DNA of 23,139 nucleotides from a virus. This document shows, piece by piece, positions 1,181 to 4,726 of this stretch. The stretch spans positions 1 through 23,139 of IMG/VR virus record IMGVR_UViG_3300032309_000777. The stretch is one strand, 5' to 3'. Made by a program: the position numbers and the translations under genes. Each line of letters begins with the position of its first letter. Position 1 is the first letter of the stretch. Below the pieces are notes generated by a model. The model worked only from the letters and a program-made list of their open reading frames with translations. It had not been told where the DNA came from and ran no database searches.

Positions 1181-1569
1181 TTGAACCTACTTTCTTCATT
1201 TGCTGGCAGATAGCCAACTGACTTCCAAACTTTCTCGGTGTTCTCAAACTGAGTGGTTGCTGGCATTAGCCGCCTCTCCCAGACTGGCTCTGGCCTCTCG
1301 TTGAGATTCCAGCCATAGATACCTTCAGGCGTAGAGTTGATGTAGACCGCTGACCGGCTGTTCGCTGCTGCTGCTGCAAGCAGCCGCCTGTACTTGTCCT
1401 CCTCAATGAGTAGCAGGTCAAAGTGGTCAACTCGACATTTCAACTCGCCGTAAAACTTGACTTCGCGCTTGGTAAACTTGACATCCCAGGTGCTGAAGTC
1501 ATCAGCTGCTTTCTCGCAGTCAGGTATGTATTTGCCTTTCAGGTAGTGAAGTAACTCGGCTTCGGTCAT
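1177..1569 (-). CDS. Putative PD-(D/E)XK-type nuclease, 130 aa
   Basis: No close family is recognised with certainty. Residues 29-44 contain an Asp (29) followed by GELKCR with Glu42 and Lys44. A helix rich in Leu and Ala (KYRRLLAAAAAN) and a strand (AVYIN) come next. Asp-x(n)-Glu-x-Lys on strand-helix-strand is the core of the PD-(D/E)XK fold, so a small nuclease or resolvase is a reasonable inference. I selected the ATG at 1569 because it overlaps the endonuclease VII stop as ATGA and has GGAGGG seven bases upstream. A reading from 1686 would overlap that gene extensively. It ends in GTGA overlap with the kinase gene. Confidence 0.6.
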   Translation of the reverse strand: MTEAELLHYLKGKYIPDCEKAADDFSTWDVKFTKREVKFYGELKCRVDHFDLLLIEEDKYRRLLAAAAANSRSAVYINSTPEGIYGWNLNERPEPVWERRLMPATTQFENTEKVWKSVGYLPANEESRFK

Positions 1570-1973
1570 CGGTTGACCCTCCTGAGATAGTCGATCCACA
1601 TATGAACGCGCTGTGGATAGCGCTCCAAGAATCCGATGGCTCGGTTGCACGGTGAGCAGAGCAGCGCCCTGACACACTTGCCACACGAGACTGGCGTTCC
1701 CTTTGTCCTGCCGGTACTGAGTGTCTCGTACTGGCAGCAGCGCGGATCGTGATCCACCGTCACCGCCCTGGTCTCACCAAACCGGAGTGGCTCCTTGCAC
1801 GCCCCACATCGATCAGCCTGAGCCAGCCGTAAGGCCGTGTACTGCTCCATCGTCATCCGATGGTTGTAGAGCGTGTACTTCAACACCCTCACAGCTCGTT
1901 GGTCCTCAGTCTCTTTCTCCCTCCAGGCTCTCGTTGCCAGAGCGCGCTTGCTCGGCTGCTCTTGCTTACGCAT
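1566..1973 (-). CDS. Recombination endonuclease VII
   Basis: The 135-residue protein carries the endonuclease VII signature. It has a zinc pair C56-x2-C59, the DHD box (Asp74-His75-Asp76) on the beta-beta-alpha-metal element, and a second zinc pair C106-x2-C109 followed by Asn110, the expected catalytic Asn position. An extra C97-x2-C100 pair sits just before the second zinc pair. The T4 family member (gp49) cleaves Holliday junctions and other branched DNA so that packaging is not blocked. The N-terminal 45 residues are basic and Glu-rich. It overlaps the upstream gene by 8 bases and the downstream gene by ATGA. Family assignment is strong. Confidence 0.88.
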   Translation of the reverse strand: MRKQEQPSKRALATRAWREKETEDQRAVRVLKYTLYNHRMTMEQYTALRLAQADRCGACKEPLRFGETRAVTVDHDPRCCQYETLSTGRTKGTPVSCGKCVRALLCSPCNRAIGFLERYPQRVHMWIDYLRRVNR

Positions 1974-2482: not shown

Positions 2483-3208
2483 CTAGAACGGCAGTTCCTC
2501 TAGCGCGGTCTCCAGCGCAGGGTTGCCGTCGTGCAGACCCTTTGCCTTGGCGGCGAGCATTGCCTCACCCTCATCGCGCACCTGGGCGTTGGTCCAGGCG
2601 ATGCTCGGCTTGCGCTGGCAGAAGGTGCCGTTCGACTTGCCAGAGCAGGCGTAGAAGGCGTTGTACGGCTTTCCAGCCTTGCTGACACCGGCAGGCTTGA
2701 ACGACCAGGCGGTGCGGTGGTCAGGGCATTCGCCCTCCGCAAACAGCATTGCCGCTGCTACGGCCACATCGCTCGTGGAAACCGACGGCTGAGATACCCT
2801 CACAGAATCAACGGAGAGGGGTCTAGGAGCCACGGAGAGGCTCGTGCCTGTGCCTGACGCATAAAGGGACCGCCCCACACCAATCTGGGCAGCGCAGCGG
2901 CGCAGAGCGTCACTGGCTGCTGACTTGAGTGGCTCGTCATCCTGCGCGCTGTTGGGATAGCCAAAGTCCTGTCGGACGGTGGTGACCCCATCAATCACGG
3001 CGATCAGGGTGCCGTGTACGACAAAGCGTGCTGCGTCGGCGACCTTGACCTCAAACTGCCAGCCAGCCAAGCCCAAGACATCGTCTAGGCGCTGAGCTAC
3101 GGCTCGTGCATCTGCGTAGGTGAAGGTCATTCCTCCGCGCCCTGGGCGCTGCTTCAGATCCGTGCCGGTGAACGGTGCGGCCAGTGCCGCTGCGATTTGC
3201 TTACTCAT
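2483..3208 (-). CDS. Rad52-family single-strand annealing protein
   Basis: Residues 20-116 carry the Rad52/Rad22-like pattern: RPGRGGMTFTYADARAVAQR, a beta-rich stretch (WQFEVKV ... VHGTLIAVIDG), GYPNSAQDDEPLKSAASDALRRCA and the following G-x-G-R-x-LY. Such proteins anneal complementary single strands during phage recombination. The C-terminal half has a candidate zinc knuckle, Cys161, His164, Cys188 and Cys197. The protein ends EELPF, an acidic tail with terminal Pro-Phe like the C-terminal tip of bacterial SSB. At 241 residues it is complete. It follows the exonuclease gene by one, the usual exonuclease plus annealing-protein pairing. It overlaps the upstream gene by 8 bases. Confidence 0.82.
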   Translation of the reverse strand: MSKQIAAALAAPFTGTDLKQRPGRGGMTFTYADARAVAQRLDDVLGLAGWQFEVKVADAARFVVHGTLIAVIDGVTTVRQDFGYPNSAQDDEPLKSAASDALRRCAAQIGVGRSLYASGTGTSLSVAPRPLSVDSVRVSQPSVSTSDVAVAAAMLFAEGECPDHRTAWSFKPAGVSKAGKPYNAFYACSGKSNGTFCQRKPSIAWTNAQVRDEGEAMLAAKAKGLHDGNPALETALEELPF

Positions 3209-3767
3209 TCTCTGGTCCTCCTAATACTGTGACTGGCAACAACTTTGCGGCTGCCAGATTCATTGAGTCTGCCTTTGCTTCGTGACCACTGTCAAAGATC
3301 GTCCCCTTCTTGACCTCCTCTGCTTCTGCCATATACGACTTGGCATCCTTCACCCCTAAGAAATACGCCTTAGGGAATCGCGTAAAGCTTGGTGGACCAT
3401 TGCGGTCTTCGCCTGGTCCGAGTTGCAGATGCACAAAGGCGTAGTAGTCGACATCTTGGTGATCCTTGATGTAGTTGAAGACGCTGACCGGATCGCTCGG
3501 CCACGGAGCCTTGCTCCACACCTTGCTCTTCACCTCAACCTTCAAGCCGCACACCTCAAAGTCACGCTGTGTGATGTTGACAAACTTGAACGGCAGGCGC
3601 TCCATTCGTAGCACTGCGGCGAAGACGGCTTGACCCATCACGCCTGTCCAGTCGGTGTTGCCTTTCGCCTTCTCGGTACGGAAGCGCAGGTGATCGCTGC
3701 TCTTCGCCTCCTTGAACATCTGCTCCGCTTCGAGCAGGAGTGCGGTATCAACAGGTACTTCAATCAC
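3201..3767 (-). CDS. PD-(D/E)XK endonuclease-like protein, 188 aa
   Basis: Not recognised as a named protein. Residues 38-53 (TDWTGVMGQAVFAAVL) resemble the first helix of restriction-endonuclease-fold proteins, in which a Gln stands where a Glu is common. A strand follows with Asp69 and KVEVKSK (Glu78, Lys80), spaced as in a PD-(D/E)XK active site, then VDYYAFVHL as the next core strand. A nuclease acting with the neighbouring exonuclease and annealing protein is plausible. The GTG start at 3767 overlaps the exonuclease TGA as GTGA. Catalytic activity is inferred. Confidence 0.6.
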   Translation of the reverse strand: MIEVPVDTALLLEAEQMFKEAKSSDHLRFRTEKAKGNTDWTGVMGQAVFAAVLRMERLPFKFVNITQRDFEVCGLKVEVKSKVWSKAPWPSDPVSVFNYIKDHQDVDYYAFVHLQLGPGEDRNGPPSFTRFPKAYFLGVKDAKSYMAEAEEVKKGTIFDSGHEAKADSMNLAAAKLLPVTVLGGPENE

Positions 3768-4726
3768 GCCTGATCCTCCTTGCCAAAGACTCGGAACACG
3801 CGCGCCCCTGGCTTCTCTGAAGTGAAGCGCTTGATGGCTTCACCGTAGGTGTCTGGAGCAACCGTTCGCAGGACATCTGCGATGCTCTCCCAGTCCACCT
3901 TGACGCTGCTCTTATTGGTCTTCCAAGTGGCAAGCCACCCCTGACCCTTGACTCCTTCGCCATCGGCGATGGCTTCCTTGATGGCGATTGCCATCTCCTT
4001 TAGCGCGGCATCGGCAGCCTCTGCCTCAACCTTCGCTTCGATGTAGAGCCGCGCAATGTGATCCAGCTGCGGATCAGCCACGGCGTAGGTGTTGTTGCTC
4101 TGCGGCTTGACTTCAGCGAGCGTGTCGCTGTCGTTGCCGGTCAGAGGTGGCGGAGTCTTGGACTGCACCAACTCGCGGAACAGGACGGCCTTGTCGAACA
4201 GTTGCGTCTGGTAGACAGGGTCAGCCTCCACGCGCTCAATGCGGAAGACCAAGCCAGATAGCAGCACCGCGACATCGCAGTACGACGCGCCTGTGATCAA
4301 CATCTGCCATTGCACCTGGTCGACATACTCAGGCGGCACTGGGTACAACTGCCAGCGGCTGCTCGTTGAGGTCTTGATCTCTACGAGACCGTCGGTGTCG
4401 CCCACGATGGTGCGGTCGAGCGAAGCCATCGCCCAGGGATGCTCCTTCAGGCGAACGATGCCGTTGCTCTTTCGCAGCTTCTTGCCAGTCTCGGCGGTGT
4501 AGTAGTCGGCGACTGCCTGCTCTAGCAGTTGACCGCGCTGGGCGGCCGCTCCGACTTCTTGCTCACCGACCTGACCAGTCAACTCTGCCCAGAGTCGATA
4601 CGCGGTCTTGTACGGCGACGAGCCGTTGATGGCGGTAATACCGGTGGCGGTGATGCCGCCCTTCCGCATCTCGAACCACTCTGGACTCCGCTGCGGTGCG
4701 GATACAAACTCAAAGCGCTTGCTCAT
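3764..4726 (-). CDS. YqaJ/lambda-exonuclease-family recombinase nuclease
   Basis: The family motifs are in order: RSPEWFEMRKGGITAT at 13-28, a Glu in GQLLEQ at 69, SLDRT with Asp104, VEIKTS with Glu116 and Lys118, and the helix DQVQWQM at 136-142. These define the YqaJ-like viral recombinase fold. The enzymes digest one strand of duplex ends 5' to 3', exposing single strands for the annealing protein. The 320-residue length is typical; residues from about 215 on add a coiled, Ala/Glu-rich region and a C-terminal domain. The ATG at 4726 overlaps the preceding zinc-ribbon stop as ATGA, and the end overlaps the next gene as GTGA. Confidence 0.88.
   Translation of the reverse strand: MSKRFEFVSAPQRSPEWFEMRKGGITATGITAINGSSPYKTAYRLWAELTGQVGEQEVGAAAQRGQLLEQAVADYYTAETGKKLRKSNGIVRLKEHPWAMASLDRTIVGDTDGLVEIKTSTSSRWQLYPVPPEYVDQVQWQMLITGASYCDVAVLLSGLVFRIERVEADPVYQTQLFDKAVLFRELVQSKTPPPLTGNDSDTLAEVKPQSNNTYAVADPQLDHIARLYIEAKVEAEAADAALKEMAIAIKEAIADGEGVKGQGWLATWKTNKSSVKVDWESIADVLRTVAPDTYGEAIKRFTSEKPGARVFRVFGKEDQA

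Follow-up and report, generated by a model that had tools for sequence, protein, structure and literature searches.

The window, the 23,139-nucleotide stretch of viral DNA analysed here, carries on its minus strand an open reading frame at 2483..3208 (stop codon included) that encodes a 241-residue Rad52-type single-strand annealing protein, as judged from the reading frame, profile matches and a structural model. The original prediction had placed an annealing gene at these coordinates, and the frame is present there; the plus-strand reading of 2483-3208 is interrupted by stops, and the minus strand is the coding one. The 241-residue product ends in ALEELPF, as had been claimed, with the stop codon immediately after. 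The gene belongs to a recombination module encoded entirely on the minus strand. This module comprises a YqaJ/RecE-like exonuclease (3764..4726; PF09588, E 3.6e-31; phrog_434, E 5.2e-66), presumed to be the recombination partner, an ORF with neither a Pfam nor a PHROG match (3201..3767), the annealer, and an endonuclease VII, or junction resolvase, gene (1566..1973; PF02945, E 3.8e-15). A YqaJ exonuclease lies near the annealing gene in all 18 family records, its identity dropping to about 55% across the family; the intervening ORF, found in 6 of the 18, does not belong to the module consistently. Downstream of the module, a deoxynucleoside monophosphate kinase-like gene occupies 587-1180 on the minus strand (phrog_139, E 8.1e-21), and the related records G018 and G011 have a gene like it close to the module. 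The terminase and exonuclease matches lean to actinobacterial phages at about 30% identity, while the capsid gives a weak match of mixed affinity.

The N-terminal part of the annealer, residues 1-122 (2843..3208, minus strand), corresponds to a Rad52 fold domain. PF04098 (Rad52_Rad22) matches residues 3-118 with an E-value of 1.4e-12 and 48.3 bits against a cut-off of 20.3, and the protein matches phrog_1097 (Erf-like annealing proteins) with an E-value of 1.1e-17. PF04098 is also matched by all 33 aligned family members. An AlphaFold model of the window annealer was built from 33 homologues, and comparison of its residues 1-122 with known structures by VIA gave Z-scores of 12.1 for human RAD52 (5jrb), 11.2 for phage 80alpha Sak (8pq8) and 11.0 for yeast Mgm101. 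The Rad52-like identity proposed originally is therefore confirmed by both profile matches and by the fold of the model. On the basis of sequence and model, the protein is assigned to the Rad52/22 (Sak-type) class of single-strand annealing proteins, with ring formation and ssDNA annealing as predicted activities. The pLDDT falls below 50 at residues 114-149 and 209-241, which fits disordered stretches. The latter stretch includes a flexible linker (residues 210-235; 2504..2581, minus strand) and the SSB-like C-terminal tip LEELPF (residues 236-241; 2486..2503, minus strand). PF04098 is the sole Pfam match at an E-value of 0.1, and the SSB OB-fold family PF00436 is not matched. We file the window annealer by its sequence as not an SSB by family, yet probably partly SSB-like in its working.

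To place these features in a family context, IMG/VR scans were conducted, which yielded several hundred relatives of the annealer. The loci retained gave 131 distinct proteins of full length, which have identities of 48-100% to the window protein and fall into 14 clusters at 80% identity; these family annealers come from freshwater phages. Residues 153-209 (2582..2752, minus strand) form a candidate zinc-ribbon module related to the GRF finger. The original prediction had named a Cys/His cluster as a likely zinc site, and the four residues stand exactly at the positions given. The putative ligands 1, 2 and 4, namely Cys161 (2726..2728), His164 (2717..2719) and Cys197 (2618..2620), are present in 131 of 131 proteins, and the third, Cys188 (2645..2647; all four on the minus strand), is replaced by His190 in another clade. 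Specifically, Cys188 occurs in 70 sequences, 69 of them with Gly190 and one with Leu190, and Ala188 occurs in 61, all with His190; no mixed case was found, so that every member has one of the two ligands and never neither or both. Along with this switch, the first pair changes from CxxH to CxH, and the exchange is what a shifted metal ligand would look like. Because it splits two clades, it may reflect a single event. The three invariant positions and the exact exchange of the third ligand support the likely zinc site.

The relationship of this module to GRF fingers is indirect. In an hhalign comparison, residues 153-209 matched modules at the C-terminus of otherwise unrelated phage proteins, each about 130-160 residues long, with a probability of 99.3% and an E-value of 4e-20, and at least one of those short proteins matches PF25690 (mycobacteriophage gp49) above the cut-off. 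These gp49-like modules in turn match PF06839 (GRF) in 12 of 15 cases, with a best E-value of 2.8e-5 and a best score of 24.6, below the cut-off of 25.9, and their profile matches the NEIL3 GRF chains 7omk and 7jl5 with an E-value of 1.3e-4. The link runs through these modules, as PF06839 gave no direct match among 33 members of the annealer family at an E-value of 1. The zinc model itself yielded a weak VIA Z-score of 2.2 to NEIL3 GRF (7jl5), the sole entry listed. Foldseek with this model returned nothing at an E-value of 0.001, the profile of the combined zinc alignment matched nothing in the PDB, and tblastn of the C-terminal part of the annealer found no match among GenBank phages. The window family shares with the GRF fingers of APE2, NEIL3 and TOP3A and with the phage gp49 family PF25690 the spacing C-x(1-2)-H ... 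GKPYxAF(Y/W) ... C; it differs from them in scoring below the Pfam cut-off and in the clade that moves the third ligand from Cys to a His two residues on. Identification of the Cys/His cluster as a GRF-type zinc ribbon is thus supported, not proven. Since the Zf-GRF of APE2 binds ssDNA (PMC8593216), a second ssDNA grip provided by the zinc ribbon is a reasonable inference for the annealer.

The C-terminal tip is the most constrained part of the protein. The original prediction had proposed comparing the C-termini of homologues, and this comparison showed that all 131 distinct family members end in [DESA][LM]PF, with no tip-less homologue. The tip remains the same behind linkers of several unrelated types, such as VRDEGEAMLAAKAKGLHDGNPALETALEELPF, TAPSGEPERTETSIEDLPF and SPAPAAPKLVPEDSLEDLPF, which vary in both sequence and length. 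Mean column conservation among the 131 proteins is 0.37 in the linker, 0.88 in the last six columns and 0.99 in LPF. Across 139 distinct coding sequences, the Rad52 domain has an uncorrected pN/pS of 0.29 and the linker one of 0.60, and the ratio falls to 0.20 in the tip and 0.023 in LPF; in the tip region, pS is 0.35-0.53, as against a pN of 0.008 for LPF. Purifying selection within the annealer is strongest at the tip. In an earlier set, 23 versions of the last 15 bases were counted; each of the three stop codons occurred, and Leu was encoded by CTG or TTG and Pro by CCG or CCC. Since codons and stop codons differ while Leu-Pro-Phe is constant, the amino acids are conserved rather than the DNA. 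A chance match is ruled out by the conservation in 131 of 131 proteins together with the varying codons. An influence of gene overlap on the tip is likewise ruled out, as the next downstream minus-strand ORF (1966-2406) stops short of the gene, leaving 76 bases between. Across the family, the mean content of the last ten residues is 3.2 acidic and 0.04 basic ones. The window tip has two Glu immediately ahead of LPF and falls short of DDDIPF in acidity; in some homologues a single acidic residue stands at that place.

The specificity of the ending was evaluated against other phage proteins. Among the 3004 distinct ORFs of at least 100 residues in an earlier collection of the loci, 72 end in PF, and 64 of these belong to the annealer family. 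Two of the eight remaining frames adjoin phage annealing genes and carry the SSB-like ends DDDLPF and DDELPPF. A DNA-level pattern of the motif conserved in Rad52/Erf/Sak annealers served to retrieve a control set of canonical phage annealing genes. None of the 110 distinct ordinary Rad52/Erf/Sak proteins with complete C-termini in this set ends in PF or even in F, and the Cys/His pattern of the window family is absent from all of them; the named annealers RM378, Vibrio D65, vir555, RHph_N2, bIL286, MG40 and others have neither the tip nor the zinc module. The tip as a general trait of phage annealers is accordingly ruled out. Of 117 canonical genes, 42 have an ORF on their own strand within 3 kb whose product carries an SSB-type tip, mostly DDDIPF or DDDLPF, as against one such ORF on the opposite strand; this agrees with a published account of Firmicutes phages, in which rad52/22 genes adjoin ssb (PMC8093625). 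The corresponding count around the family annealers is 0 of 131 on the same strand and 0 of 131 on the opposite strand. The location of the tip is therefore complementary in these data, on a neighbour or on the annealer and never on both. Separately, a protein ending in EFLANPSELPF was observed near an ordinary Rad52/Erf-type gene in two loci (L333 and L339); its tip is SSB-like and the preceding C-terminal stretch is un-SSB-like.

Searches of whole records extended this comparison to SSB genes. PF00436 gave no match in any of 22 family records, the window record included, under conditions in which the controls were positive, although divergent SSBs could escape this profile. Two of the records without a match are counted as complete because of exact end repeats: G002 (L329, L330), a close relative of 27.9 kb with a repeat of 127 bp and a 99% identical exonuclease, and G009 (L321, L322), of 31.9 kb with a repeat of 281 bp. 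The end overlaps of G011 and G018 are imperfect. The window, at 23 kb, probably covers the greater part of a genome like these two, which measure about 28 and 32 kb. In the gene lists of five family records, the PF ending is unique to the annealing protein; the annealing gene of G011 was missed by the simple gene caller used for that list and was placed by other means. PF00436 was also unmatched in two of three canonical Rad52-type phages checked, so the absence of an SSB match is not peculiar to the window family. Profiles for Enc34/DUF2815-type (PF10991) and DUF669 (PF05037) ssDNA-binding proteins gave no matches in the family, but the controls gave none either.

Two mosaic annealing genes (L178:5419-6138 and L210:1250-1993) combine the Rad52 domain of one clade with the zinc-plus-tail part of the other. 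Their Rad52 domain shows an identity of 0.82 to L211, whereas their zinc-plus-tail parts have identities of 0.71 and 0.70 to the window protein, as opposed to 0.51 and 0.46 to L211. The Rad52 domain and the zinc-plus-tail part have thus been swapped independently, and the tip has been kept always.

The domain arrangement of the window annealer combines features that are distributed differently in known systems. T7 gp2.5 is a phage SSB with an OB-fold that is capable of annealing, and its acidic tail ending in Phe recruits partners. The window annealer resembles gp2.5 in uniting annealing with a Phe-ending acidic tail in one protein, but is Rad52-type with L-P-F instead of an OB-fold protein. 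It shares the annealing-domain family with P22 Erf and other PHROG 1097 annealers; the Erf/Sak-type proteins read have neither the zinc module nor the tip. With bacterial and phage SSBs (PF00436) it has in common a disordered linker ending in an acidic residue followed by (L/I)-P-F, while it lacks an SSB-family match and its DNA-binding part would consist of the Rad52 fold and the zinc ribbon. Another close parallel is phage 80alpha, whose Sak shares the Rad52 fold (VIA Z 11.2) and a role in phage recombination. In 80alpha Sak, the C-terminal domain is a bundle of helices and acts together with the tail of an SSB that the phage encodes separately; efficient annealing needs both this domain and the final seven residues of SSB80alpha (PMC11846896). 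In the window annealer, by contrast, a putative zinc ribbon and an SSB-like tip of the annealer's own make up the C-terminal part, and the PF00436 search detected no SSB gene. In phage HK620, the six-residue NDYPPF tail of the SSB is required to stimulate Sak4 (PMC5928155). Structurally, the Pro-Phe of the SSB tip fits a pocket of RecO (PMC7145534).

Since the annealer bears its own SSB-type tail, whereas 80alpha and HK620 use the tail of a separate SSB, docking of the proteins that read SSB tips is the likeliest role. We propose, with a probability of about 0.58, that a Rad52/Sak-type annealer has taken over parts of the job of SSB, its tip docking proteins that normally recognize SSB. In this mechanism, the neighbouring YqaJ exonuclease would produce 3' tails, and the N-terminal Rad52 domain would form rings that hold and anneal these single strands, as expected from its family. 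The GRF-like zinc ribbon would probably add a second ssDNA grip, as GRF fingers do in APE2. The disordered linker would display the acidic-Leu-Pro-Phe tip, which would most likely recruit SSB-recognizing proteins, for example RecO or PriA, to the annealing intermediates. A ring on DNA would present many tips, much like SSB-coated DNA. The original proposal, in which the tip might recruit or compete for host proteins such as RecO, RecQ and PriA, is plausible in this light and partly supported. A more speculative extension, which we hold tentatively and regard as somewhat improbable, is that a phage lineage dispenses with an SSB of its own because its annealer already displays SSB tips; annealase rings on DNA would be taken for SSB-coated DNA and would attract the host's proteins of replication restart and recombination, which would link annealing directly to host fork restart.

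The conservation of the tip could in principle also arise in other ways. The tip may instead dock a phage partner, most likely the YqaJ/RecE-like exonuclease, and load the annealer onto freshly resected ends as in the lambda Red pair, the likeness to SSB being convergent. The presence of an exonuclease near the annealing gene in 18 of 18 records is what such a pairing would produce; however, LPF stays unchanged while the exonuclease diverges to about 55% identity, and acidic-L-P-F is the very form found on SSB-type neighbours, so that we consider this docking unlikely. The acidic character and predicted disorder of the tail would also suit a brake on DNA binding, in which the tail folds back on its own DNA groove or zinc ribbon with no separate partner. 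Such an action is reported weakly for E. coli SSB, and contact of the SSB tail with its own DNA site is cited in PMC5928155. A brake would, however, need acidity more than an invariant L-P-F, and the linker is free in sequence and length; we judge it less probable still than docking of the exonuclease. Finally, the tip might be a functionless remnant kept through common descent or recombination, given that the members share ancestry and that clades have traded their N- and C-terminal parts. This is very improbable, as synonymous sites vary (pS 0.35-0.53) and stop codons differ against a pN of 0.008 at LPF.

How annealers gain access to SSB-coated DNA, and why the function of many is limited by host, are live questions in phage biology and recombineering. 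In the window family, the annealer itself bears the docking tip of SSB and a zinc ribbon that probably grips ssDNA, and the SSB-type neighbour common near related annealers is missing. If the tip does dock SSB partners, a two-protein system would have been condensed into one protein. A search of open-access literature yielded no description of an annealing protein that bears an SSB tip of its own, which is weak evidence of novelty.

The zinc module also occurs outside annealers. Phage proteins of about 130-160 residues (L113:5096-5488, L116, L126, L139, L146, L165 and others) carry this GRF-like module at their C-terminus but have neither a Rad52 domain nor the tip, and may be ssDNA-binding. 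Short proteins on Candidatus Falkowbacteria and archaeal MAG contigs (L082:2283-2619 and L083:229-688) carry an N-terminal, four-Cys version of the GKPYNAFYAC zinc ribbon.
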